NCBI RefSeq assembly: GCF_900103365.1
Contig: NZ_LT629703.1
Coordinates: 992,001 to 1,056,000 of the forward strand
Direction: 5' to 3'
From: Afipia sp. GAS231
Lineage (GTDB): Bacteria > Pseudomonadota > Alphaproteobacteria > Rhizobiales > Xanthobacteraceae
Length of the DNA: 64,000 nucleotides
Shown: positions 33,567-52,209 of the stretch, one piece after another
Numbering within the stretch: position 1 is the first letter of the stretch
How the letters are laid out: each line of letters starts with the position of its first letter
Position numbers and translations under genes: made by a program
The notes under the pieces: generated by a model
What the model saw: the letters and a program-made list of their open reading frames with translations, nothing else
What the model was told of the DNA's origin: nothing
The model's database searches: none

Positions 33567-34211
33567 ATGTCGAGTACAGACGAGAACAAGCCGGCGACAA
33601 AGTCCGGACGACGCAATCGCAAGGGGGAGGCGCGGCGTCAGAAATCGAATTCAACCGAGAGCCCGGCACCGGTTCAAGCGCAAACCCCGGAACAAGAGCA
33701 GGTTCCTCAAGCGGATCCGGAGCCGGTCGTCAGCGAACCGCTTGAGGCCGTCGTTGCTGAAGCCATGGTCGCCGAGGAAACGGTCGCTGAGGCTGACGCC
33801 GTTCCGGCCGACGCCCCTTTGCCGGCCGACGCCCCCTTGCCGGCCGATGCCCCCTTGCCGGCCGATGCCCCCTTGCAGGCCGATGCACCCCTGCAGGCCG
33901 ATGCCCCCTCACCGGCCGAAGCTGCCGCGGCCGAATCCTCGCCTGTCAGCCTGCAGACGATCGCGAATGCCTATCGCGACTACACGCGGAAGTCGTTCGA
34001 GGAGTTCGGGTCGTTTTTCGAGCAACTCAGCGGCGTGCGCTCGCTCGACAAGGCGATGGAAGTGCAAACCGAATTCGTGAAGCGGGCCTACGAGAATTCG
34101 GTGGCCGAGTCGCAGAAAATCCGCGAACTTCACCGCAAGCTTGCCAGGCAAACCCTCGAACCGTTCGGGGGCTTCGTCGGCAAGCCGCCGGAGACGCACG
34201 GCAAATCCTGA
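33567..34211 (+). CDS. Phasin family protein with a repetitive acidic/Pro-Ala linker
   Basis: The 214-residue protein has a basic N-terminus (residues 1-30, KSGRRNRKGEARRQK), an acidic Pro/Ala/Glu linker that includes six tandem ADAPLP-type hexapeptides (about 80-116), and a C-terminal phasin domain: SLQTIANAYRDYTRKSFEEF near 130, FFEQLSGVRSLDKAMEVQTE, then FVKRAYENSVAESQKIRELH. Phasins cover polyhydroxybutyrate granules; the basic end could bind nucleic acid, as in other granule-associated proteins. GGGGAA precedes the ATG. A strong terminator lies just downstream. Confidence 0.85.
   Translation: MSSTDENKPATKSGRRNRKGEARRQKSNSTESPAPVQAQTPEQEQVPQADPEPVVSEPLEAVVAEAMVAEETVAEADAVPADAPLPADAPLPADAPLPADAPLQADAPLQADAPSPAEAAAAESSPVSLQTIANAYRDYTRKSFEEFGSFFEQLSGVRSLDKAMEVQTEFVKRAYENSVAESQKIRELHRKLARQTLEPFGGFVGKPPETHGKS
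33807..33914. repeat. Six tandem 18-base coding repeats
   Basis: Units of GCCGAYGCCCCCTTGCCG type follow each other at 33807, 33825, 33843, 33861, 33879 and 33897. Each encodes ADAPLP or ADAPLQ inside the phasin linker. The length is a multiple of three, so unit gain or loss keeps the frame. Confidence 0.9.
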
Positions 34212-34251
34212 ACACCCGAGGCGGAATGGCCTGCGACGGCTCGAAGCAACA

Positions 34252-34277
34252 GGCTCCGGTTTTCCGGAGCCTTTTTT
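34252..34277 (+). terminator. Rho-independent terminator after the phasin gene
   Basis: GGCTCCGG at 34252-34259 and CCGGAGCC at 34264-34271 pair perfectly around TTTT and are followed by six T residues. Confidence 0.93.
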
Positions 34278-34283
34278 ATGGCG

Positions 34284-34421
34284 TCAACCGGCGCTCTGGC
34301 CCTGGCTTCGTTTGGTCGCCGGCCCCGCCCCGCGCATATAGTGCCGCTCCGGCCGATAGCGGCCGGCGAAGCGTCGCATGATCCCTTGGGTCATGGTCGA
34401 TATCCAATGCAGAATGGCCAT
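34284..34421 (-). CDS. Possible 45-residue basic small protein downstream of the SulP gene
   Basis: A short frame starts at ATG 34421, reads MAILHWISTMTQGIMRRFAG, continues RYRPERHYMRGAGPATKR and ends with TGA at 34284. It is rich in Arg with an amphipathic start. AAAGGA lies seven bases before the ATG, and the frame begins 27 bases after the SulP stop on the same strand, so it could be the last gene of that operon. No family is recognised and conservation is untested. Confidence 0.45.
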   Translation of the reverse strand: MAILHWISTMTQGIMRRFAGRYRPERHYMRGAGPATKRSQGQSAG

Positions 34422-34448
34422 CGAACGGTCCTTTCGTCCTGCGGTTCG

Positions 34449-35957
34449 TCAGGCGCCGAGCTGACCCGTCAGCCGCTCGTGGAACGAGGAGCTGCGCGGG
34501 TCGAGTCCGGTGAAGGTGACGGTGGCGCCGTGTTCGCGGTATTTGGTCTCGATGGCATCGAGTGCTGCGACGCTCGAAGCGTCCCAGATCTGCGAATGGG
34601 TGAGATCGATCGCGATGCGCTTGGGATCCTCGCCATAGGAAAAGCGCTCGACCAGATCGTTGCTGCTGCCGAAGAACAGCGGTCCGTGAACGCTATAGCG
34701 AACCGACAGGCCGTCCGGGCTCGGCGTGCGCTCGGCACGAATGACATGTGCGACCCGGCGCGCGAACAGCACCATCGCCAGCAACACGCCGACGGCAATG
34801 CCGAAGGCGAGATTGCTGGTGGCAACCGTGACCACGACCGTCAAGGCCATGACCAGCGTTTCCGGGATCGGCATTCGCTTCAGCGTCGCCGGCTGCACGC
34901 TGTGCCAGTTGATGGTCTTGAGCGCCGCGATCATCATCACGGCGGCCAGCGCCACCATCGGGATCTGCGCCATCAGGTCGCTCAGCCCTGTCACCAGCAC
35001 CAGCAGCACGATCGCCGCGACCGCCGTCGAGATGCGGGTGCGGCCGTTGCCGATTTTGACGTTGACCACGGTCTGGGCAATCATCGCGCAGCCGCCGATG
35101 CCGCCGTAGAAGCCGGCGGCGATGTTGGCGATGCCGAGCGCCCAGGACTCCCTGCCCTTGTGCGAGCGCGTATCGGTGAGGTCGTCGACCAGCTTGGCCG
35201 TCAGCAGCGTCTCGAGCAGGCCGACAAAGGCGACACTGAGCGCGGTCGGCCAGATGATGCGAAACGTATCGAGGTCAAGGGCAACGGTGAACGCGGTGAT
35301 GCCAGGCAATCCCGGCGCCATCGCGCCCTTGCCGCCGACATTGGGAACAGTGAGATGCCAGAGAATCACGATCGCAGTCACCACGATGATGGCGATCAAC
35401 GGCGCCGGCACGGCGTTGGTCAAGCGCGGCATCACCAGGACGATGGCGATCGTCAATGCAAACAGGGGATAAACGATCCAGGCAACGTTGAGGATATGGG
35501 GAACCTGGGCCGCAAAAATAAGAATCCCGAGCGCATTGACGAATCCGATCATCACCGACCGCGGCACGAAGCGCATCAGCCGCGCCAGGCCGGCCAGACC
35601 GAAGACGATCTGGATGATACCGGCGAGAATGATGGTCGGCAGGATGTAGCCTGTGCCATGCAGCTTCACCATCGGCCCGATCACCAGCGCGATCGAGCCT
35701 GCAGCCGCGGTGACCATCGCCGGCCGTCCGCCGAGCACCGACATCACGAGACACAACACGATGGAGGCGACCAGTGCCACCTTGGGATCGACACCCGACA
35801 CGAATGAAAACGAGATCACCTCCGGAATCAGCGCCAGCGCGGTTACCATTCCGGCCAGCGACTCCCGCACGAACAGGTGAGGTGCCCGAAGCACTTCCGA
35901 TATCGACGGCTGGTCCTCGAACTGATTTTGAGTGGTGGCGGGGTTGGCGACGTGCAT
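34449..35957 (-). CDS. SulP family anion transporter with STAS domain
   Basis: The 502-residue protein has about ten to twelve membrane segments and a C-terminal STAS domain. Visible SulP features are LAGMVTALALIPEVISFSFV near residue 35, VTAAAGSIALVIGPM near 85, SVAFVGLLETLLTAKLVDD near 235, and the STAS core IDLTHSQIWDASSVAALDAI near 447. SulP proteins exchange or symport sulfate, bicarbonate or dicarboxylates. Here it lies 36 bases downstream of FGE and sulfatase genes, so sulfate or sulfate-ester related transport is plausible, though some family members carry bicarbonate or carboxylates. Confidence 0.87.
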   Translation of the reverse strand: MHVANPATTQNQFEDQPSISEVLRAPHLFVRESLAGMVTALALIPEVISFSFVSGVDPKVALVASIVLCLVMSVLGGRPAMVTAAAGSIALVIGPMVKLHGTGYILPTIILAGIIQIVFGLAGLARLMRFVPRSVMIGFVNALGILIFAAQVPHILNVAWIVYPLFALTIAIVLVMPRLTNAVPAPLIAIIVVTAIVILWHLTVPNVGGKGAMAPGLPGITAFTVALDLDTFRIIWPTALSVAFVGLLETLLTAKLVDDLTDTRSHKGRESWALGIANIAAGFYGGIGGCAMIAQTVVNVKIGNGRTRISTAVAAIVLLVLVTGLSDLMAQIPMVALAAVMMIAALKTINWHSVQPATLKRMPIPETLVMALTVVVTVATSNLAFGIAVGVLLAMVLFARRVAHVIRAERTPSPDGLSVRYSVHGPLFFGSSNDLVERFSYGEDPKRIAIDLTHSQIWDASSVAALDAIETKYREHGATVTFTGLDPRSSSFHERLTGQLGA

Positions 35958-35993
35958 GAGATGGTTCCGAAAAATCGTTGCCGGCTGCTGTGA

Positions 35994-37007
35994 TCACGCG
36001 CCCGGCGGTTGGCGCACGACGCAGCGGAAGCCGATGTGGCAGGCGGAGGAGTCGACGGTTTCGCCCTGACGGGCCGAGGGCCGGTAACGCAGGCAGTAGT
36101 TCGGAGCGCAGAGATGCGAGCCGCCCTTCACCACGCGACGCGTGGAACGGTCGCCGCCGGAATCCGGATGACAGCAGGATTGCTGCGGTTGATCCGGCGC
36201 CGCGTCATAGAGGCTCGCGGTCCACTCCCAGACATTGCCGACCATGTCGAACAGGCCGTAACCATTGGGAGGAAACGCGTCGACCGGCGAGGTGCCGTCG
36301 TAGCCGTCTTCGGCGAGATTTTCGTAGGGAAAGCGGCCCTGCCAGGTGTTGGCGAGAAACCGGCCTTCGGGATTGGCGGCATCGCCCCAGGGATAGGCCT
36401 TGCCTTCCAGCCCGCCGCGGGCGGCGAATTCCCATTCGGCCTCGGACGGCAATTCCTTGCCGCACCATGCCGCATAGGCCAACGCATCCTCATAGGCGAT
36501 GTGCACGACGGGATGATCGTCGCGGCCGGCGAGCGAACTCTGCGGCCCCTGGGGATGTCGCCAGTCGGCGCCTACCCTGTATTCCCACCAGGCGAGGTTA
36601 TCGCGGAGGCTGACGGGGCGATCGGGCTTTTTGAACACCAACGAGCCCGGCACCAGCAGCGCCGGGTCGGCGTCGGGATACATCGCCGGATTCGGCGGGC
36701 GTTCGGAGTAAGTGACGTAACCGGTCGCGTCGACGAATTTGCGGAACTCGGCGTTGGTAACGGGATAGATGTCGATCCAGAAGCTGTCGACGTGGGCCGG
36801 TCTAACCGGGCGTTCTTCCCGATAGAAACTGTTGGAGCCCATCAGGAAATTGCCGCCCGCGAGGAACACCATGTCCTCGCGGTCGGCCGGGGCGAGCTTG
36901 GCGCCCGCGTTTGACTGACCGGAGAGCGAGCAGCAGCCCGCTCCCCGGCGAAAGCCGGCTGCACCCTTCGCGATCGTTTCCGCTCTCGTCGGTGCAGTCA
37001 TGGTCAT
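35994..37007 (-). CDS. Formylglycine-generating enzyme (sulfatase-activating)
   Basis: The 337-residue protein is a true FGE, not just a general SUMF1-fold protein. The two active-site cysteines are at 300 and 305 in GGSHLCAPNYCLRYRPSAR, five apart as in characterised FGEs. Other conserved parts are FLMGSNSFYREERPVRPAHV near 72, PVTNAEFRKF, ELPSEAEWEFAARGG near 205 and MVGNVWEWT near 270. FGE uses oxygen and Cu(I) to turn the sulfatase Cys into formylglycine. Its ATG overlaps the stop of the adjacent sulfatase by one base (TGATG), so enzyme and target are translated together. Confidence 0.93.
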   Translation of the reverse strand: MTMTAPTRAETIAKGAAGFRRGAGCCSLSGQSNAGAKLAPADREDMVFLAGGNFLMGSNSFYREERPVRPAHVDSFWIDIYPVTNAEFRKFVDATGYVTYSERPPNPAMYPDADPALLVPGSLVFKKPDRPVSLRDNLAWWEYRVGADWRHPQGPQSSLAGRDDHPVVHIAYEDALAYAAWCGKELPSEAEWEFAARGGLEGKAYPWGDAANPEGRFLANTWQGRFPYENLAEDGYDGTSPVDAFPPNGYGLFDMVGNVWEWTASLYDAAPDQPQQSCCHPDSGGDRSTRRVVKGGSHLCAPNYCLRYRPSARQGETVDSSACHIGFRCVVRQPPGA

Positions 37008-38374
37008 CACGCCTTGGCGTATTGCTTGGGCACGAAATCGAGCGCGGCGCCGGGCGGAATCAACTCCTCCTTCTTCGCACTGTCCTCGAACTCCCTGATG
37101 ATGCGCTGGGCATGCTGCATCACCCACCAGCGCACGTAGCGCTGGTTGACGGCCTCACGCTCCTTCGGGTCTTCCTGCAGATGGGTGATGCGGGCAAAGC
37201 CGAGCGGCAGTTCCGGGTCGTGGAAATGCTGCTGCCGCTTGAAGTTGATCTTGAAGTCCTTCCACTTCACCGCGTGCAGTTCGTCCTTCAGCCAGACGAT
37301 GCACGACTCCCGGTTCGAGGTCGGCTGCTTGCCGAGGAAGAACGGGCTCTGGTCGACGCCGTCGATCAGGCGGTCGGCCGGCGCCTTGCAGCCGGTCATC
37401 GACAGCAGCGTCGTGAACATGTCGGTGACATGAACCATTTCGTTGCTTTCGATGCCTGCCGGAATGTGCTCCGGCCAGCGGATCAGCAACGGCGTGCGGA
37501 TGCCGCCTTCCGCCGACGAGAAGTAGGAGCCGTCGAAGAAGCCGCCGGTGCCGCGGCCGGCGAGATGGTCCTCGGCGCCATTGTCGCCGCACATCACGAC
37601 GATGGTGTTGTCGGCGACGCCGAGCTCATCGAGTTTGTCGAGCAGCACGCCGAAATCGTGATCCAGCATCAACAGGCAGTCGCCCCACTCGCCATTGGTG
37701 CTCTTGCCGACGAATTCGTCGCGCGGCGACATCGGGAAGTGCATCAGCGAGTGGTTGAAGTAGCAGTAGAACGGCTTGTCGTCCTTGGCCGACTTTTCCA
37801 TGAACTTGAGCGCGCGCTTCTGGTACTCCAGATCGCAGGTCTTCTTGGTCTCCATGGTGAGCTGTTCTTCCATGATCGGCCAGGCACCCTTGCCCTTGAC
37901 GCCTTCATGCATGTGCGAGAAGCCGTCACGCTCCGGCACGTAATGCGGATCGGTCAGCCACATGCACTCGTCATAGGTACGCAGCGGTCCGTACCATTCG
38001 TCGAAACCGTGATCGGTCGGGAAGCGGCCGTCCTCGGCGCCGATGTGCCATTTGCCGTAGATCGAGGTGGCGTAGCCGGCTTCCGACAGGATCGCGCCGA
38101 TGGTGCGCTCCCAGGTGACGAGGCCGCCGCCATTGCCGCCGAGCGCGATGGTGTGGTTGCCCGAGCGGATCGGAAAACGTCCGGTCATCAGCGCCGAGCG
38201 GGTCGGCGTGCACTGCGGCTCGACGACATAATGCGTCAGCTTGACGCCCTGCTTGGCAAAGGTATCCATGCGCTTGGTGTCGGCACCGCGCAGGATGCCG
38301 CCGCCGTAGCAGCCGAGTTCGCCCATGCCGAGATTGTCGACGTGGAAAAATAGAATATTGGGTTTCTTAGCCAT
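37007..38374 (-). CDS. Type I sulfatase (arylsulfatase family)
   Basis: The 455-residue protein is a type I sulfatase: PNILFFHVDNLGMGELGCYG with the metal-binding Asp13, and the formylglycine site CTPTRSALMTGR with Cys55 and Arg59. GKWHIGAEDGRFPTDHGFDE near 128 and MCGDNGAEDHLAG near 260 supply further active-site Lys, His, Asp and Asn. The second metal ligand is Asn14 in place of the usual Asp. No signal peptide is present, so it works in the cytoplasm on imported sulfate esters. It lies between an ABC importer and its own FGE. The substrate is unknown. Confidence 0.93.
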   Translation of the reverse strand: MAKKPNILFFHVDNLGMGELGCYGGGILRGADTKRMDTFAKQGVKLTHYVVEPQCTPTRSALMTGRFPIRSGNHTIALGGNGGGLVTWERTIGAILSEAGYATSIYGKWHIGAEDGRFPTDHGFDEWYGPLRTYDECMWLTDPHYVPERDGFSHMHEGVKGKGAWPIMEEQLTMETKKTCDLEYQKRALKFMEKSAKDDKPFYCYFNHSLMHFPMSPRDEFVGKSTNGEWGDCLLMLDHDFGVLLDKLDELGVADNTIVVMCGDNGAEDHLAGRGTGGFFDGSYFSSAEGGIRTPLLIRWPEHIPAGIESNEMVHVTDMFTTLLSMTGCKAPADRLIDGVDQSPFFLGKQPTSNRESCIVWLKDELHAVKWKDFKINFKRQQHFHDPELPLGFARITHLQEDPKEREAVNQRYVRWWVMQHAQRIIREFEDSAKKEELIPPGAALDFVPKQYAKA

Positions 38375-38499
38375 TGAATTCTCCGATCTATGGCGCGGGC
38401 GCGCGGCATCGTTGGCGCGCTTGCCCTTTTGCGCCTTCCTTTGGTTGCAGTCGTTGATTGCTGGTTCGCGCCTGTCAGGCCGCGACGTCTAGAATTGTG

Positions 38500-39378
38500 T
38501 CAGAAGATTTCGCCCACTCCTTTCGGTCCCACTTTCATTCCAAAGCCTGAAAGGCCTCGATCCTTGATCTCTGGTCCCATCGCAGCGAGTGACTCCTCGC
38601 GGATCAGCCCCTTGAGTTCTTGCACCAGGCTCATGAATTCAGGTGTGTCAGTCATCTCCGCCCGCCGCGGACGCGGCAGCGGCACCTTGATTTCCGCCTT
38701 GATGCGGCCAGGCCGCGCGGTCATGACGTAAATGCGGTCGGAGAGGAAAATCGATTCCTCGATGTCATGCGTAATGAACAGCACCGAAATCTTGAACTGC
38801 TGCCAGATGTTGGTCAGGATTTCCTGCATCACGACCCGCGTCTGCGTGTCGAGCGCGCCGAACGGCTCATCCATCAGGAGCACCTGCGGACTGGTCGCCA
38901 GCGCACGGACGATGCCGATGCGCTGCTTCATGCCGCCGGAGAGCTGGTCCGGATAGTGATTTTCGAATGAGAGCAGGCCTGCGAGATCGAGCAATGACCG
39001 CGCCGTAACGTTTCGCTTACTCTGCTCGACGCCGGCCATCTTCAGGCCGAACTCGACGTTCTTGCGAACCGACAGCCACGGGAACAGTGAATACTGCTGG
39101 AACACGACGCCGCGATCCGAGCCCGGCTTGGTGATCGCCTTGCCGTCGAGTGTCGCTTCGCCGCGCGTCGGCTTGACGAAGCCGGCGACGATCGAGAGCA
39201 GGGTCGACTTGCCGCAGCCGGAGGGCCCGATCAGCGACACGAACTCGCCGGGCTGGACGTTGAGCGAGACGTTGTCGACGGCAACCACCTTGTTGTCGTT
39301 GGCGCCGAACGTCACGCCCATGTCGCGAACGTCGATGAAGCCTTTTTGAACTTCGGTATTGGACATTGCCATTGTCAT
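38500..39378 (-). CDS. ABC transporter ATP-binding protein (nitrate/sulfonate/taurine type)
   Basis: The 292-residue ATPase has Walker A GPSGCGKSTL near 50, Q-loop FQQYSLFPW, signature LSGGMKQR near 150, Walker B VLLMDEPFGALD near 172 and the H-loop ITHDIEES. It belongs to the SsuB/TauB/NrtD group. Its ATG overlaps the stop of the permease gene in ATGA form. Three Met codons (39378, 39372, 39366) open the frame; I take the first because of the overlap. About 40 extra residues follow the usual end. The frame upstream of 39378 is a shadow of the permease gene. Confidence 0.92.
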   Translation of the reverse strand: MTMAMSNTEVQKGFIDVRDMGVTFGANDNKVVAVDNVSLNVQPGEFVSLIGPSGCGKSTLLSIVAGFVKPTRGEATLDGKAITKPGSDRGVVFQQYSLFPWLSVRKNVEFGLKMAGVEQSKRNVTARSLLDLAGLLSFENHYPDQLSGGMKQRIGIVRALATSPQVLLMDEPFGALDTQTRVVMQEILTNIWQQFKISVLFITHDIEESIFLSDRIYVMTARPGRIKAEIKVPLPRPRRAEMTDTPEFMSLVQELKGLIREESLAAMGPEIKDRGLSGFGMKVGPKGVGEIF

Positions 39379-40364
39379 TGCTTGCTCCCAGGCGCAAATG
39401 CCAACCAGGGCATCATGAGAACGCCGACCAGGCGGATGATGCCGCTGCAGGCCAATCCAAGGACGCCGATCGTGATCATGCCGAGCACGATCGCCGGATA
39501 GTTCACCAGCGAATAGGCTTCCCAGGTGAAGTAGCCGACACCGAACTGACCCGAGATCATCTCGGCTGCGATCAGCGACACCCAGGCCACGCCCATGCCG
39601 ACCGCAAGACCGGTGAAGATATGCGGCAACGAGCCCGGCAAAATCACGTTCAGGAGCAGACGGCCTTCGCTGGCGCCGAGGCAACGCCCTGCCCGGATCA
39701 ACACGCCATCCAGCGAATGAACGCCATGGATGGTGTTGAGCAGGATCGGGAAGAAGGCGCCGATGAAGGTGATGAAGACGATCGCGGCCTCGTTGTTCGG
39801 CCACAGCATGATCGACATCGGAACCCAGGCGATCGCCGGGATCGGCCGCAGGATTTCAATCACCGGCATGAACAGGTCGCGCACGCGCTCGTATTTTCCG
39901 ATCGCCAGTCCCAGCGGAACACCGATCACGATCGCGATCACGAAGCCGAGCAGAATGCGCCGCAGGCTGATGGCAATATTGAACAGGTACTTGTTCGACA
40001 GCCCGACCTGCGTCAGTTGCTGATACACTTCGTAAGGCGTCGGAACGTTCTTGAAGCGGATGTAGAATTCGAGCCGGTATTTGGTTCCGAAATACCAGAA
40101 CAGGAACAGCGCCGCGATCGAGATACCGCCGAGTAGCGCGGTGATGAAGCGCTCGCGGGTGAATTTCGCCGACAGGCTTTTAAGGACCTTGCGCAGCGAC
40201 ACCGTCGGGATCGGCTCCGGGGCCGGTACCGGCAAATCCGGGGTGGCCGGCGAAGCATTTGCGGTTACTTTTGCCGTTGCTTCCGCGGCGACCGGGGTCG
40301 GCGGCTCGGGGGGCTTTTCCATGATCGGGATCGCTATGATTTTGGCGCTTGCTGTGGTGCCCAC
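39375..40364 (-). CDS. ABC transporter permease (nitrate/sulfonate/taurine type)
   Basis: The 329-residue protein has a long Pro/Ala-rich cytoplasmic N-terminus (about residues 15-55), then six membrane helices with the conserved cytoplasmic loop EILRPIPAIAWVPMSIML near 180 and LGASEGRLLLNVILPGSLPH near 243 (EAA-type loop). This is the SsuC/TauC/NrtB pattern. It sits ten bases after the binding-protein gene and overlaps the ATPase gene, so the three make one importer. The N-terminal extension is longer than usual. Confidence 0.9.
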   Translation of the reverse strand: MGTTASAKIIAIPIMEKPPEPPTPVAAEATAKVTANASPATPDLPVPAPEPIPTVSLRKVLKSLSAKFTRERFITALLGGISIAALFLFWYFGTKYRLEFYIRFKNVPTPYEVYQQLTQVGLSNKYLFNIAISLRRILLGFVIAIVIGVPLGLAIGKYERVRDLFMPVIEILRPIPAIAWVPMSIMLWPNNEAAIVFITFIGAFFPILLNTIHGVHSLDGVLIRAGRCLGASEGRLLLNVILPGSLPHIFTGLAVGMGVAWVSLIAAEMISGQFGVGYFTWEAYSLVNYPAIVLGMITIGVLGLACSGIIRLVGVLMMPWLAFAPGSKQ

Positions 40365-40373
40365 GGTCCGCCC

Positions 40374-41810
40374 CTATTGTCCGACATTGATCGCGCTGAG
40401 CACTTCGGCATAGGTCGCAAGCTTGCCGCCGTTCTTGGCTGCAAAGGCTTCCGCATCCTTCTTGAGCAGGAACGGCACGACATCCGGCTTCTTCGGATCC
40501 TGTCCGCCGATCGAATAGAAGGCGGCGTCGGCAAACACCTTGATGCCGAGCTCGTGGTCGACCAGATAGACCGCGTTGAATTTCTTGCCGTCGGAGGTGT
40601 ACTTCTTGACGCCCAGCAGCGTGCAGACCGGGGAGCTGAACGGCACGATGTCGCCGCCCTGGATCCAGATCTCACCGGTTTGCGCGGGATTGTCGATCGG
40701 CGCATTGCAGACCGGATCGGTGCCCGTCACATTGTAGGTATCGAACGAGGCGAGCTGCTTGTCGTAGTCGAGCCCGAGCTCCTTGTAGGCCTGCCGGACA
40801 TAGCTGTCATTGACCCAGGCGCCGATGTTGAGTTCCTTGATCATGTTCAGCTTCTGCAGGATCGCGTAGTTCGCGCCGACAGCCTCAACCCACTTTGGTT
40901 TGATGGTCGCATCGAGCGTGTGCACGCCGCCGGGGCCCAAGAAGATGTAGACCACTTCCTTGTTGATCTTGGTCCACTCCTCGATCTTCTCGGCCGCGAG
41001 CTTTGGATTCTTGCGCATCCAGTCGTTGGCCTCCATCAGAGCTTCGATGTAGGCGACCACGATCTCCGGATACTTTTCGCCAAAGTCCTTGCGCACGACC
41101 ACGCCGTGGAAGGTCGGCGTCTTGGTCTCGGCGCCGTCATAGATCTTGCGGGCGAAACCGCGGAACGGCAGCAGTTCGGCGAACGGCACGAAGTCGCCAT
41201 GAGCGTCGATGCGCTTTTCCTGCAGATTGGTGCTGCCGACTTCCGGCGATTGCGACACCAGGTTCCAGTAATCCGGCGGCAGTCCGCGCTTCTCCAGCGC
41301 CCGAACCATCATGCCATGCGCAGCCGAGCCGAATGGTACCGAGACGTTCTTGCCCTTGAGATCGCCGAGCTCGTAGTAAGGCGAATCCTTGTGAACGACG
41401 ATGCCATTGCCACCGCCGACGGCGTTGTAGGCGATGATCGCGACCAGCTGGGTTTCGTTCTTGGTGGCCTGCCCGGTGGCGCCATTCACCATCAGCGGAT
41501 AGTCGCCCATCATGCCGATCTGGATATTGTTGGCCATCATGCCGTTGGTGATCGGCGGGCCGGACGTGGCGTTCTGCCAGCTCAGTCTGTATTCGAAGTC
41601 CTTGTACTTGCCGGTCTTCGGCAAATGCTTCTCCAGCAAGCCAAGCTCCTTGAGAACGACGCCCCCGGTGACGGTGTTGGTCGTCGTATTCTGCGTGCCG
41701 ATGCCGATTTCGAGCGTCTCCGCGCTTACCTGTCCGGGTACGAAGGCGATCGCCGTTGCGACCAGCAAGGGAAACAAGCCGGAGAGTTTGGACGCTGGAC
41801 CGACGCTCAT
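40374..41810 (-). CDS. ABC substrate-binding protein fused to a C-terminal NosL-like domain
   Basis: The 478-residue protein has a signal peptide (MSVGPASKLSGLFPLLVATA, cleavage near VSA) and an NMT1/TauA-type binding domain: TQNTTTNTVTGGVVLKELGL near 35, GMMGDYPLMVN near 95, NGIVVHKDSPYYELGDLKGK near 125. Residues 365-478 (40374-40718) look like NosL, the copper-binding lipoprotein of nitrous oxide reductase maturation: DPVCNAPIDNP (in place of CxMxI), a second Cys at 396 in SSPVCTLLG, AVYLVDHELG, ADAAFYSIGG, and KDAEAFAAKNGGKLATYAEV. This domain is extra to the family's usual length. AAAGGA precedes ATG 41810; the frame upstream is not used. Confidence 0.88.
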   Translation of the reverse strand: MSVGPASKLSGLFPLLVATAIAFVPGQVSAETLEIGIGTQNTTTNTVTGGVVLKELGLLEKHLPKTGKYKDFEYRLSWQNATSGPPITNGMMANNIQIGMMGDYPLMVNGATGQATKNETQLVAIIAYNAVGGGNGIVVHKDSPYYELGDLKGKNVSVPFGSAAHGMMVRALEKRGLPPDYWNLVSQSPEVGSTNLQEKRIDAHGDFVPFAELLPFRGFARKIYDGAETKTPTFHGVVVRKDFGEKYPEIVVAYIEALMEANDWMRKNPKLAAEKIEEWTKINKEVVYIFLGPGGVHTLDATIKPKWVEAVGANYAILQKLNMIKELNIGAWVNDSYVRQAYKELGLDYDKQLASFDTYNVTGTDPVCNAPIDNPAQTGEIWIQGGDIVPFSSPVCTLLGVKKYTSDGKKFNAVYLVDHELGIKVFADAAFYSIGGQDPKKPDVVPFLLKKDAEAFAAKNGGKLATYAEVLSAINVGQ

Positions 41811-42037
41811 GAGACAAATCCTTTCGAACCGAACTCTGCTGTGTGCCGTACGATGCGCATGCCAAGGCCCCCGGCCACGGTGAACGGCGGCGGTGTTACT
41901 CGGCGATGAGCGGACTGACTGTGATGTTCCTGATGTTGCAAGCGACATGCCACCGGGGCCTTGACGGCATGCCCATGACCCGGCTCGTGGTGGCCCGGCT
42001 TGCTGAGGGCTGAATCAATGAAAGGAGTAGACGTCAT
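41807..42037 (-). CDS. Possible His-rich small protein overlapping the binding-protein gene
   Basis: A frame of 76 codons starts at ATG 42037 (MTSTPFIDSALSKPGHHEPG) and ends with TGA at 41807, overlapping the binding-protein ATG as ATGA. The middle part is rich in His with one Cys (HGHAVKAPVACRLQHQEHHS), which could bind metal or act as a leader peptide. It continues RRVTPPPFTVAGGLGMRIVR. No clear ribosome-binding site precedes ATG 42037. An in-frame TTG at 42061 gives eight more residues. The gene is a candidate only; the overlap and composition argue for it. Confidence 0.42.
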   Translation of the reverse strand: MTSTPFIDSALSKPGHHEPGHGHAVKAPVACRLQHQEHHSQSAHRRVTPPPFTVAGGLGMRIVRHTAEFGSKGFVS

Positions 42038-42330
42038 TGCCGTGAACTCGCTTGCTTCCAACCCGGACGATGACGTCCGTTAAGCAAACTCTGAACGGCC
42101 CACCTTGAATCCGAAACGACGAACGCTTCGAACCGGCAACGCATTGCGAAGAAAGATCGGGATGCTCAATTAATGGACAATAAAATCGCCGATCCTGATC
42201 GACAGATGGGCGGCGTGGCTAGAAATTAGCCAACTCAACCATACGCGGCGCGGGAATCACTATCAGCGGCGGTGGTACCGGCAATTGGGCTGACATCGTG
42301 ACGTCGATCGAGGCGATGCACCCACCGGTG
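42038..42330. other. Upstream region of the sulfate-ester importer operon
   Basis: About 290 bases with no gene, presumably holding the promoter of the minus-strand importer operon. TGGCTA-GAAAT-TAGCCA at 42216-42232 is a perfect inverted repeat and a possible operator. No FNR-type TTGAT-N4-ATCAA site is present. Confidence 0.4.
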
Positions 42331-43131
42331 TTAGTGCTCTTCCGATGCCGCAACCTTGGCGAGCTTGCCGTCGCGAATCCCGCTCAGCAGGTCCGCGTTC
42401 TGAATAACGAGATTGGCGCCGTGCGCGCGCAGGATTCCGAGTTCGGTAAATCGTTTCAGGCTGACGGTGACGGATTGCCGGGTCACGCCCGTCATATGCG
42501 CCAGATCGGCATGCGTGAACGAGGCGGCGATCAAGCTGCCATCTTTTTCCTCGACCCCGTACAGGTTCATCAGGTGCAGCAGCAGCTGCGCCAGCCGTTC
42601 GGTCGGCGACCGGGTGCCGAGCATTTGCGCGAGCGCTGAATAGCACTGCCCCTTGAAACTCAGGCCCTCGATGATGCCGATCGCCAGCGCAGGAATCGTC
42701 ATCACCATCCGGCGCAGAATGTCACCCGGCAAATGCAGCACCGAGCTGTTGACGGCGGCCTCCCCCGACCAGACGTGCAGTCCCTGCTTGAACACTTCGG
42801 GACCGCCGACGAAATTGCCGGAGTGCCAATACGCGAGCGTGATCTCGCGGCCCGACGGCGCCGTGTAGAAGACTTTTATCCGCCCGGTCTCGATCAGATA
42901 GATGCCGTCCTGTGGACTGCCCTGGCTGAACAGCCGGGCACCGCGATACAGCACCTTGCGCTTCCCCGAACCCACCACCTGCGCGATTTCGGCCTCGGTC
43001 AATCCCTGGAACAGATAAGGCGGCCCGCTCCGCTGCGTCCCGCCCTCGGCCATCAGCAGCGCGCCGAACTGGATCGGTGCCTCGCTTTTGTCGCTCGGAC
43101 TTGCTTGAGATGAGTGATGTTTACCGATCAT
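42331..43131 (-). CDS. Crp/Fnr family transcriptional regulator
   Basis: The 266-residue protein has a cNMP-binding-type barrel (LFSQGSPQDGIYLIETGRIK near 85, FYTAPSGREITLAYWHSGNF near 107), a long dimer helix and a winged-helix domain with FTHADLAHMTGVTRQSVTVS near 210. FNR-type iron-sulfur cysteines are absent. It is encoded just upstream of, and in the same direction as, the ABC importer/sulfatase operon, so it is a candidate regulator of that operon, possibly binding the inverted repeat at 42216. The effector is unknown. Start ATG 43131 lacks a clear ribosome-binding site. Confidence 0.86.
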   Translation of the reverse strand: MIGKHHSSQASPSDKSEAPIQFGALLMAEGGTQRSGPPYLFQGLTEAEIAQVVGSGKRKVLYRGARLFSQGSPQDGIYLIETGRIKVFYTAPSGREITLAYWHSGNFVGGPEVFKQGLHVWSGEAAVNSSVLHLPGDILRRMVMTIPALAIGIIEGLSFKGQCYSALAQMLGTRSPTERLAQLLLHLMNLYGVEEKDGSLIAASFTHADLAHMTGVTRQSVTVSLKRFTELGILRAHGANLVIQNADLLSGIRDGKLAKVAASEEH

Positions 43132-43341
43132 AGAACCGCTCTAAGCCAATTCCAGCCCTGTTCTTGATCCGCTTTGCAATCCGCGCGCCAAGTAACGGTT
43201 TCATTGTCGGCTGAAGCGGCGTCAGTGTCCACATATCGCACGGAGATCACACGGCATTTCCATCGGTTTCGCTGCCTGCGGCAAACTGGCCAATCACGGC
43301 CGATGTGGTTAAGATCGTCCGCTGTTCCCCTCTCGATCGCA

Positions 43342-44169
43342 ATGAGCCCCTCCGTGAGCAAGCCCCCGAAATCAAGCAGCGGCAACATCTATATCGGCAT
43401 CGGCGGCTGGACTTTCGAGCCGTGGCGCGGAGTGTTTTATCCGGAGAAGCTGACGCAGGCGAAGGAATTGTCCTACGCCGCGTCGAAGCTGACCTCGATC
43501 GAGATCAACGGCACCTACTACGGGTCGCAGAAGCCGGAGAGCTTTCGCAAATGGGCGCGCGAAGTGCCCGACGGTTTCGTGTTTTCGTTAAAGGGGCCGC
43601 GCTTCGCCACCAATCGTCGCGTGCTGGCGGAGGCCGGTGATTCCGTGAAGCGCTTTTATGATTCCGGCGTGCTCGAACTCGGCGACCGGCTCGGTCCGGT
43701 GCTGTGGCAATTCGCGCCGACCAAGAAATTCGACGGGGCCGATTTCGGCAAGTTTCTCGAACTGCTGCCGCGCAAACTCGACGGCCGCGCGCTGCGTCAT
43801 GTGGTGGAAGTCCGGCACGACAGTTTTTGCGTACCTGAATTCATCGCGCTGATCCGGCAATTCGAGACGCCGGTGGTGTTCGCCGAACACGGCAAGTATC
43901 CGGCCATCGCCGACGTCGCCAGCGATTTCGTCTATGCGCGGCTGCAGAAGGGCAATGACGAACTCAAGACCTGCTATCCGCCGAAGCAACTCGACGCCTG
44001 GGCCAAGCGGTTTCAGGCCTGGGCCTCAGGCAGCGAGCCCGACGATCTGCCGCGGGTCGACGCCACCAAGCCGAAGAAGGCGCCGCGCGACGTGTTCGCC
44101 TACGTCATCCACGAAGGCAAGATCCGCGCGCCGGCGGGCGCGATGGAATTGATCGAGCGGGTGAAATGA
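43342..44169 (+). CDS. DUF72 domain protein (YecE-like)
   Basis: The 275-residue protein is a DUF72/YecE TIM-barrel-like protein: IYIGIGGWTFEPWRGVFYPE near 16, SKLTSIEINGTYYGSQKPES near 45, VFSLKGPRFATNRR near 78, and VVEVRHDSFCVPEF near 155. The function is unknown. It is followed 12 bases later by a DUF488 gene, a pairing often seen. ATG 43342 is used; the frame is open further upstream to 43174, but that part is not conserved-looking. No strong ribosome-binding site is visible for either. Confidence 0.85.
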   Translation: MSPSVSKPPKSSSGNIYIGIGGWTFEPWRGVFYPEKLTQAKELSYAASKLTSIEINGTYYGSQKPESFRKWAREVPDGFVFSLKGPRFATNRRVLAEAGDSVKRFYDSGVLELGDRLGPVLWQFAPTKKFDGADFGKFLELLPRKLDGRALRHVVEVRHDSFCVPEFIALIRQFETPVVFAEHGKYPAIADVASDFVYARLQKGNDELKTCYPPKQLDAWAKRFQAWASGSEPDDLPRVDATKPKKAPRDVFAYVIHEGKIRAPAGAMELIERVK

Positions 44170-44181
44170 ACGGAGCGCCGC

Positions 44182-44643
44182 ATGGCTAGAGCGAAGAAGC
44201 TTTTCACCATCGGCTATGAGCAGACGCCGGCAAAGGCCGTGCTCGACGAACTCGAAGGCGCCGGCGTGAAACTGCTGGTCGACGTGCGCGCGGTGGCGTC
44301 GTCGCGCCGGCCGGGCTTTTCCAAGACTCAACTCGCGGCCGGTCTCGACGAGCGCGGCATATCGTATCTGCATCTGCGCGGGCTCGGCACTCCCAAGGAC
44401 GGCCGCATCGCCGCCCGCGGTGGCCAGTTCGATGTCTTGCACAAGATCTACGCCAAGCATCTAAAGACGCCGCAAGCGCGAGAAGAACTCGACGAACTCT
44501 CCGCGCTGGTGAAGCGGTCAGGTCCGGTCTGCATTCTCTGCTACGAGCGCGATCACGCACATTGTCACCGGCGATGGATCGCCGAGATCATGGAGGATCG
44601 CGACGGCGTGAAGATCGAGAATCTGGTGGCGCCGCAGGTGTAA
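44182..44643 (+). CDS. DUF488 domain protein
   Basis: The 153-residue protein matches DUF488: KLFTIGYEQTPAKAVLDELE, LLVDVRAVASSRRPGFSK near 30, LHLRGLGTPK near 63, and the C-terminal cysteine/histidine motif VCILCYERDHAHCHRRWIAE near 115, which resembles a catalytic or metal site. The function is not established. GGAGC lies six bases before the ATG, and the DUF72 gene ends 12 bases upstream, so the two are cotranscribed. Confidence 0.87.
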   Translation: MARAKKLFTIGYEQTPAKAVLDELEGAGVKLLVDVRAVASSRRPGFSKTQLAAGLDERGISYLHLRGLGTPKDGRIAARGGQFDVLHKIYAKHLKTPQAREELDELSALVKRSGPVCILCYERDHAHCHRRWIAEIMEDRDGVKIENLVAPQV

Positions 44644-50759: not shown

Positions 50760-50785
50760 ATGACTGACTGGTCAGTCATTGTCAA
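50760..50785 (-). promoter_or_regulatory. TetR operator embedded in the efflux-operon promoter
   Basis: ATGACTGAC at 50760-50768 and GTCAGTCAT at 50771-50779 are perfect inverse copies with a two-base centre. On the minus strand TTGACA (50785-50780) directly abuts the palindrome, and an A+T-rich segment (CATATTTAAG) follows it, so the palindrome fills the spacer between -35 and -10. Binding here would block RNA polymerase. Confidence 0.8.
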
Positions 50786-50857
50786 GAAGCTGGGTTTCAA
50801 TGCAATTTCACATCGGCGTCATTGGTGATCATTCACATCGTTCCAAAGACTTATCCC

Positions 50858-50972
50858 GTCATTTGCGAGCCAACGGGTCGGGCGAATGCCCGCCCGATGA
50901 CAGGCTCCGCGAAGCAATCCATTCTTTCTTCACGTGGAGAGATGGATTGCGTCACTCCGTTCGCAATGACGG
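50858..50972. repeat. Degenerate family A palindromic repeat
   Basis: GTCATTTGCGAG near the left and CGTTCGCAATGACGG at the right enclose AAGCAATCCATTC / GATGGATTGC. Extra sequence (GGGTCGGGCGAATGCCCGCCC, itself partly palindromic) is inserted in the left arm. Confidence 0.65.
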
Positions 50973-50976
50973 CGCC

Positions 50977-51057
50977 GTAGGATGGGTGGAGCGCAGCGAT
51001 ACCCATCGCTTCACCGGTAGTGTTGATGGGTATCGCTGTGCTCAACCCATCCTTGTA
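50977..51057. repeat. Intergenic palindromic repeat, family F
   Basis: GTAGGATGGGTGGAGCGCAG and CTGTGCTCAACCCATCCTTG face each other around GCGATACCCATC / GATGGGTATCGC. Only this copy is in the window. It joins the degenerate family A copy to the IS110 leader. Confidence 0.7.
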
Positions 51058-51059
51058 AT

Positions 51060-51261
51060 AGCAAAATCGATTATTGTCGGTGTGTTCCGAAAGGAATGGC
51101 CTGCCACGGACGGCAATCCGCGGCAGGCCGCTGGCGATCGGATCGTACCCATCCAGAGCCACTTTTGGCTGCTCCGTAGCGAGATCGTCGTCAGCACCTT
51201 CATCGGACCCGGATGGTTGCCGGAACAACTTGGTTCGCTTCACAAGGCAGGGTCGACGAAG
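51060..51261 (+). ncRNA. Candidate IS110 bridge RNA leader
   Basis: The non-coding stretch before the IS110 recombinase contains a strong stem-loop. GGCCTGCC at 51098-51105 pairs with GGCAGGCC at 51122-51129, and inside it CGGA pairs with TCCG around CGGCAA. In the IS110 group the left end is known to be transcribed into a bridge RNA that specifies target and donor DNA. The match is positional and structural only; the guide loops were not identified. Confidence 0.35.
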
Positions 51262-52209
51262 ATGACACAGATTATCATAACGACGGCTGGAATCGATACG
51301 TCCAAGTCCAAACTGGACATCGCAGTTCACGATCGTGCCGAGCGTTGGCAGGTCGCAAACGTCTTGCCTGGCTGGCGAGCCCTTGCCGGTTACCTAGCCA
51401 AGGCCGGCGTGACGCGCGTCGGCATCGAGGCGACCGGCGGGTATGAACGTGGTGTGGTGGAGCATTTACGCGAGGCAGGCTTTACCGTGCTGGTGCTGCA
51501 GCCGATCCAGGTCAAGGCGTTTGGCCGGGTGCATCTGTGCCGCGCCAAGAACGATGCGCTCGACGCGGTCTTGATCGCGGCTTGCACAGCAACGCTCGAT
51601 CCGCCGAAGACTACGCCAGATTCACGTCTGGCTGAATTGGCTGAAAATCTGACTTTCCTCGATCAAATCGATGAGGATCTCAGGCGCTTCAAGACCCGGC
51701 TGGAACATATCCACGAGCCTCGGTTGCGGCGAATGGTTCTTGGCGAAATTGCTCGATGGAACGCGCGACGGCTCGCCCAGGTTCGTTACATTGCCAAGCA
51801 ATTACGCTCTCACCCCGATCTCGCCGCTCGCTTTGATCTGGTGCTCAGTATTCCTGGAATCGGTGAGCGGACTGCACTGGCAATCATTATCCGTATGCCC
51901 GAGCTTGGTCGCGTGAGCCGGGAGGAAGCCGCAGCCCTCGCCGGACTTGCTCCCTTCGACAACGACAGCGGGCAGCAAAAAGGGCAACGCCACATCGCCG
52001 GCGGCCGAGCTCGCTTGCGGCGCTCCCTGTTCGCGGCAGCCCTCCCAGCAGTGTTCCGGTGGAACAAGGCCCTCACCATGCTCTACGCACGCCTAATAGC
52101 ATCCGGAAAGCATCATAACGCCGCACTCATCGCCTGCGCCCGCAAGCTCCTGATCTACGCCAACACCGTCGTTCAACGCGGTACCCCGTGGATCGAAAAA
52201 GATGCTTAG
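51262..52209 (+). CDS. IS110 family transposase (bridge recombinase type)
   Basis: The 315-residue protein has the N-terminal DEDD RuvC-like domain with Asp12 (GIDTSKSKLDIAV), Glu56 (GIEATGGYE), Asp98 and Asp101 (KNDALDAV). The C-terminal Tnp domain has VLSIPGIGERTALAI near 194, and Ser236 in NDSGQQKG corresponds to the catalytic serine. Length is normal and no frameshift is seen, so it may be active. ATG 51262 is used; the frame is open far upstream through the leader and repeats, which do not look coding. Confidence 0.92.
   Translation: MTQIIITTAGIDTSKSKLDIAVHDRAERWQVANVLPGWRALAGYLAKAGVTRVGIEATGGYERGVVEHLREAGFTVLVLQPIQVKAFGRVHLCRAKNDALDAVLIAACTATLDPPKTTPDSRLAELAENLTFLDQIDEDLRRFKTRLEHIHEPRLRRMVLGEIARWNARRLAQVRYIAKQLRSHPDLAARFDLVLSIPGIGERTALAIIIRMPELGRVSREEAAALAGLAPFDNDSGQQKGQRHIAGGRARLRRSLFAAALPAVFRWNKALTMLYARLIASGKHHNAALIACARKLLIYANTVVQRGTPWIEKDA

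Follow-up and report, generated by a model that had tools for sequence, protein, structure and literature searches.

NosL (PF05573), which binds Cu(I) with attomolar affinity, is the copper chaperone of nitrous oxide reductase, and the question raised by the locus described here is what a domain of this kind does at the C-terminus of the substrate-binding protein (SBP) of an ATP-binding cassette (ABC) importer encoded beside a sulfatase and a formylglycine-generating enzyme (FGE). The locus lies in a 64,000-nucleotide stretch of the genome of Afipia sp. GAS231 (contig NZ_LT629703.1, positions 992,001 to 1,056,000), which was analysed as a whole and is called the window; coordinates without a locus label refer to it. 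A preliminary description had suggested that the domain might tie copper handling to sulfatase activation or sulfate-ester uptake. Our analysis points elsewhere: the protein is probably the SBP of an SsuA/TauA-type importer for an anionic organosulfur compound, and the NosL-fold tail a permanent component of that transporter, without a part in copper delivery to FGE. The gene has the following features.

40374..41810, minus strand: 478-residue SBP with a C-terminal NosL-fold domain
41721..41810, minus strand: likely Sec-type signal peptide, residues 1–30 (ending VSA/ET), with no lipobox Cys, from hydropathy
40761..41720, minus strand: SsuA/TauA-type binding domain, residues 31–350
40377..40718, minus strand: NosL-fold tail, residues 365–478
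40707..40709, minus strand: codon of Cys368, which aligns with the Cys of the NosL CXM motif; the Met position is not conserved
40623..40625, minus strand: codon of Cys396, which accompanies Cys368 in 241 of 241 Cys-bearing sequences

The fusion itself had been recognized correctly, the 114 additional C-terminal residues being a NosL-family domain. The NosL fold is described as two beta-beta-alpha-beta domains in the available text of PMC6530538, and the tail has this fold. Pfam NosL was matched at residues 379–471 with 23.3 bits in hmmscan and with 25.4 bits in a whole-genome scan (curated cut-off 24); a separate, true NosL elsewhere in the same genome scored 160.9 bits. Three relatives from the sister group introduced below scored 35.1 (L047), 23.5 and 19.9 bits. 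MerB, described in the literature as kin to NosL, shares a NosL-like fold and gave a lower match to the tail than NosL. The main domain was assigned to NMT1_2 and NMT1 in Pfam and has the periplasmic-binding fold of the SsuA group; a full-length model was predicted with a pLDDT of 88.0 and a pTM of 0.86, and fold-search matches to it cover mostly residues 30–356. The hydropathy peak in the first 60 residues (2.12, compared with 0.85 for the sulfatase and 0.70 for the FGE) suggests, from hydropathy only, that the SBP would be exported to the periplasm.

Two kinds of gene set were found beside tailed SBPs. A profile of the tail found matches in six of 385 genomes searched from the class and in 23 of 398 from the phylum, 26 distinct genomes in all. 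From these, 20 distant loci of 10–20 kb were kept, excluding the window genome and the weak matches G001, G184, G491, G508 and G662 (frames of 228–295 residues); six of the 20 come from members of the same genus as the window. Presence and absence were scored with tblastn because a simple gene caller based on GC position gave some wrong frames. The tailed SBP, permease and ATPase were present in 20/20 distant loci, and the window's sulfatase was matched in none (E ≤ 1e-5, within the 10–20 kb). The same tail thus persists at loci that lack a match to this sulfatase, which, together with the lost copper motif described below, speaks against the proposed link between copper and sulfatase activation. 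In the sister group, the nine loci found through the tail likewise gave no match to the sulfatase or to FGE.

What stands beside the transporter in 19 of the 20 distant loci is a flavoprotein, an AprB-like ferredoxin, a HEAT-repeat protein and a DUF971 (GBBH-like_N) protein; at the twentieth (L057) the flavoprotein lies elsewhere in the genome, again with ferredoxin, HEAT and DUF971 genes. The flavoprotein form is thereby the commoner one among the distant loci. The flavoprotein belongs to NCBIfam PRK08275 and resembles fumarate reductase and adenylylsulfate (APS) reductase (1140 bits against a cut-off of 587 for the L058 copy). GntR or Crp/Fnr regulators are often found at the distant loci, and ferredoxin reductase or a YeiH-type exporter at some. 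The PRK08275 flavoprotein, the AprB/HgcB-like ferredoxin, the HEAT protein and the DUF971 protein recur together as a functionally undescribed set. No description of a flavoprotein–HEAT set, of a NosL-tailed SBP fusion or of a link between NosL and sulfatases was found in openly licensed literature at the level of search results.

Flavoprotein sets with the transporter and GntR or Crp/Fnr regulators are located at L058:5872-13201, L052:9829-16792, L069:9521-18499 and L068:9241-16197 (the last with no DUF971); L068 and L069, which came from a search with the flavoprotein, were left out of the 20-locus counts, and the sulfatase was matched in neither. Searched by itself, the flavoprotein gave matches in 51 plasmid records, and three annotated plasmids were examined: one from Methylobacterium carries the full set with the transporter, one from Aquabacterium carries the set without DUF971, and pTcM1 of Acidithiobacillus caldus (L067:6210-9948) has genes for GntR, the flavoprotein, the ferredoxin and the HEAT protein, with no ABC transporter in the stretch examined. 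A partial FGE-family match (42% over 23% of FGE) was seen at L055:13955-14212, a few genes away from a tailed transporter at a locus where the sulfatase was not matched.

In the window, the SBP gene is followed by the sulfatase-type set and preceded by a regulator gene.

39375..40364, minus strand: ABC permease, NtrB/SaoP/TauC-like (PF00528; NCBIfam matches under their cut-offs)
38500..39435, minus strand: ABC ATPase, SaoA/TauB-like, start approximate (PF00005; best NCBIfam match SaoA, 275.9 bits against a cut-off of 360)
37007..38374, minus strand: type I sulfatase (PF00884, E = 7e-38; PDB 7aj0, E = 4.3e-60)
35994..37010, minus strand: FGE, start approximate (PF03781, E = 1e-83; PDB FGE, E = 4.8e-77)
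34449..35957, minus strand: SulP-family transporter with a STAS domain (PF00916, PF01740)
42331..43131, minus strand: Crp/Fnr-family regulator, upstream of the SBP gene (PF00027, PF13545)

The sulfatase has the CXPXR motif as CTPTR at residues 55–59 (Cys codon 38210-38212). No signal peptide was seen in it, its homology to PDB 7aj0 beginning at residue 2, nor was one seen in the FGE. The FGE retains the Cys pair CAPNYC in alignment with FGE structures, which we take to be the copper-binding pair of this enzyme. An Rfam search of window positions 34000-44000 at gathering scores gave no match. Around the cluster, adjoining DUF72 and DUF488 genes lie on the plus strand (43174-44643), divergent from the Crp/Fnr gene; a phasin-family protein is encoded at 33567-34211 and contains an 18-base tandem repeat of 6.4 copies (33804-33919, repeated PADAPL units); and an open frame for an IS110-family transposase is found at 50779-52209.

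The near relatives, 18 loci fetched with the SBP protein and including Bradyrhizobium, Methylocystaceae, Rhodocyclales and Acidisphaera, share this arrangement. The order SBP–permease–ATPase–sulfatase–FGE is conserved in 16/18, and the other two (L012 and L018) end at a contig edge before those genes, so that the reported clustering with FGE holds. A SulP gene is present in 16/18, downstream of the SBP in 15 (truncated at a contig edge in L010) and upstream in L017, and a Crp/Fnr gene lies near the SBP in 16/18, on the opposite strand in L012; in L016 and L017 a GntR-type gene takes its place. A tail never found near sulfatase or FGE genes, the pattern that the preliminary description had itself set against its copper link, is what the distant loci show and what the near ones do not. 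Neither the window's genome (best match at E = 1.1e-8, 27% identity) nor the L017 genome, from Acidisphaera (best match at E = 1.4e-15), has a close copy of the flavoprotein.

The two sets meet in a metagenome-assembled genome of the Rhodocyclales (L016:9139-21383 and L111:3881-7536), where they stand side by side in the order GntR-type gene, tailed SBP, permease, ATPase, sulfatase, FGE, SulP, gyrB-like gene, small gene, flavoprotein, ferredoxin, HEAT and DUF971. The gene after SulP appears gyrB-like from reading of its sequence without a family search; the flavoprotein–ferredoxin–HEAT–DUF971 block begins 3.3 kb past the sulfatase cluster. A single tail match was found in this genome, and the leading GntR-type gene is 55% identical to the GntR-type gene of a flavoprotein cluster. 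In two quick trees, from which L012 and L018 were excluded, a single branch separates the 17 sulfatase-type SBPs from the rest (SH-aLRT 99 and 98). The root of the first tree is void, and that of the second is unsure because its two tail-less SBP outgroups sit on very long branches. The tailed importer would thus be the constant part of the system and the enzyme set the variable part. More broadly, and with somewhat less confidence than an even chance, we envisage a widespread proteobacterial organosulfur system in which a NosL-fold-tailed SsuA-type importer works with either of two exchangeable desulfurizing modules, a chaperone fold having been re-used as an accessory domain, for docking or a second ligand, with its copper motif lost and a new Cys pair gained in some branches.

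The cysteines of the tail bear most directly on what it does. The copper motif of NosL is CXM with a strictly conserved Met, extended by a His in clade I (CXMX3H) or by a Cys in clade II (CXXCXM), as given in the available text of PMC6530538. CXM was found in 30/30 stand-alone NosL sequences, the best-scoring 30 of 51 places and a choice that favours typical NosL. The preliminary description had likened the site here to the Cu(I) site of NosL; Cys368 (in DPVCNAPI) does occupy the position of the CXM Cys, and the rest of the motif is not kept, the window protein having CNA. Neither clade-specific ligand is present, residue 374 being Asn and residue 365 Asp. For the wider comparison, the best 120 sequences each of the near, sister and distant groups were combined with the window's protein into a non-random set of 361, in which Met occurs at the CXM position in 2/121 near, 0/120 sister and 0/120 distant sequences. 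The second cysteine, Cys396 (in FSSPVCTL), was considered as a known NosL feature and rejected: on visual inspection, this column holds no Cys in any of the 30 stand-alone NosL sequences, five of them having one four columns earlier.

The two cysteines come and go together. Both are present in 241 of the 361 sequences, one alone in none and neither in 120, with the pair invariant in the near (121/121) and sister (120/120) groups and absent from the distant group (120/120); among 19 further sequences from the loci, nine have both and ten have neither. A single change on the quick trees accounts for the pair. Such pairing would fit a disulfide or a single site made up of both cysteines, and where present they most likely form a disulfide. 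Since the tail is retained in the distant group with neither Cys, these ligands are dispensable for the tail in general.

Compared with known systems, the tail differs from NosL in lacking the CXM Met and the CXMX3H His, in the added Cys396, in its fusion to an SBP and in the absence of the conserved N-terminal Cys by which NosL is believed to be lipid-anchored, the likely signal peptide ending in VSA before ET and the tail following the SBP domain. The SBP falls below the NCBIfam cut-off for SsuA_fam (119.7 against 163.5 bits) and far below that for taurine (72.1 against 304.25 bits); unlike SsuA and TauA it carries an extra tail, and it is accompanied by the sulfatase or by the flavoprotein set (elsewhere in the genome in L057, and cut off in L012 and L018). 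The SAO system, with its SaoAPX transporter and MerB-like SaoL, is similar in that SaoA is the best NCBIfam match of the ATPase and in that MerB shares a NosL-like fold; membership was rejected, as the scores for SaoA (275.9/360 bits), SaoP (152.5/295) and SaoX (22.2/300) are all under their cut-offs. Likeness of the tail to MerB, the organomercurial lyase, is at the level of the fold and weaker than to NosL.

The mechanism we favour would begin with fusion of a NosL-fold domain to the C-terminus of an SBP before the sampled lineages split, the domain having been retained since. The SBP would capture an anionic organosulfur compound in the periplasm and the ABC transporter would import it. As the window's genome has sulfatase, FGE and SulP in place of the flavoprotein, a route of capture, import and hydrolysis is likely there: a cytoplasmic, FGE-activated sulfatase would hydrolyse a sulfate ester (or sulfamate), and SulP would move the freed sulfate, in a presumed direction. 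The tail would act in the periplasm as an accessory domain, contributing stability, permease docking or a second ligand site.

Several points weigh against this picture. The inferred direction of module exchange comes from quick trees whose root is unsure, and the genome of L016 carries both sets, so the modules are not strictly exclusive. Sulfatases of other families at the distant loci could be missed by tblastn with the window's sulfatase, and the near-type genomes searched whole for the flavoprotein were those of the window, L016 and L017. The gene contexts are known for a minority of the 361 sequences, a non-random sample. Sequence change has been faster in the tail than in the SBP domain (in the distant group, 30.8% compared with 46.6% mean identity to the window), which might point to a looser role. 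The predicted models give no readable distance between Cys368 and Cys396, and the invariance of both cysteines in the sampled near and sister groups makes a thiol or metal function possible there.

Of the other explanations, the one that survives best, although we judge it unlikely, is that the tail is what is left of an old fusion, decayed and poor in function, and persists only as a stabilizer of the SBP. Loss of the copper motif is in keeping with this, as is the small share of positions conserved to at least 99% across the 361 sequences (8/111 in the tail, compared with 71/320 in the SBP domain). However, the shortest of 362 proteins has 453 residues, so that none has dropped the tail (a result favoured by the length window of the search and the best-120 lists), and D365, W382, Y415, D418, G422, K424, A430 and A453 hold at about 30% overall identity. 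It is distinctly improbable that the Cys pair is a soft-metal or thiol site and that the importer takes a metal-bound or thiol-reactive organosulfur compound, handled by the NosL/MerB-fold tail before import; the invariant pair would suit such a site, and the distant tails have neither Cys. Hardly tenable is the proposal of NosL-like Cu(I) binding by the tail, whether to provide copper for FGE activation or to make sulfate-ester uptake depend on copper status: it draws on the true NosL fold, the position of Cys368, the invariance of both cysteines in the near group and the use of Cu(I) by FGE, which the available text of PMC12123546 confirms, but the CXM Met is all but missing from the tails, the Cys pair is no less conserved in the sister group, whose nine loci found through the tail lack sulfatase and FGE matches, the distant tails persist with neither Cys, and direct hand-over is unlikely since the tail is predicted to be periplasmic and the sulfatase and FGE have no export signal. 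The copper link to FGE was accordingly rejected as the main reading, since it is the transporter, not FGE, that the tail accompanies from locus to locus.

With the tail read as a permanent component of the importer, a NosL-fold domain is found outside nitrous oxide reductase maturation, on the SBP of an importer and without the copper motif; since that motif is lost, annotating such proteins as copper-binding would mislead. One kind of importer is tied to two different enzyme sets, and the sulfatase version offers a concrete handle, sulfate esters, toward identification of the substrate. The tail seems to be an enduring component of a sulfur uptake system that has received little study.
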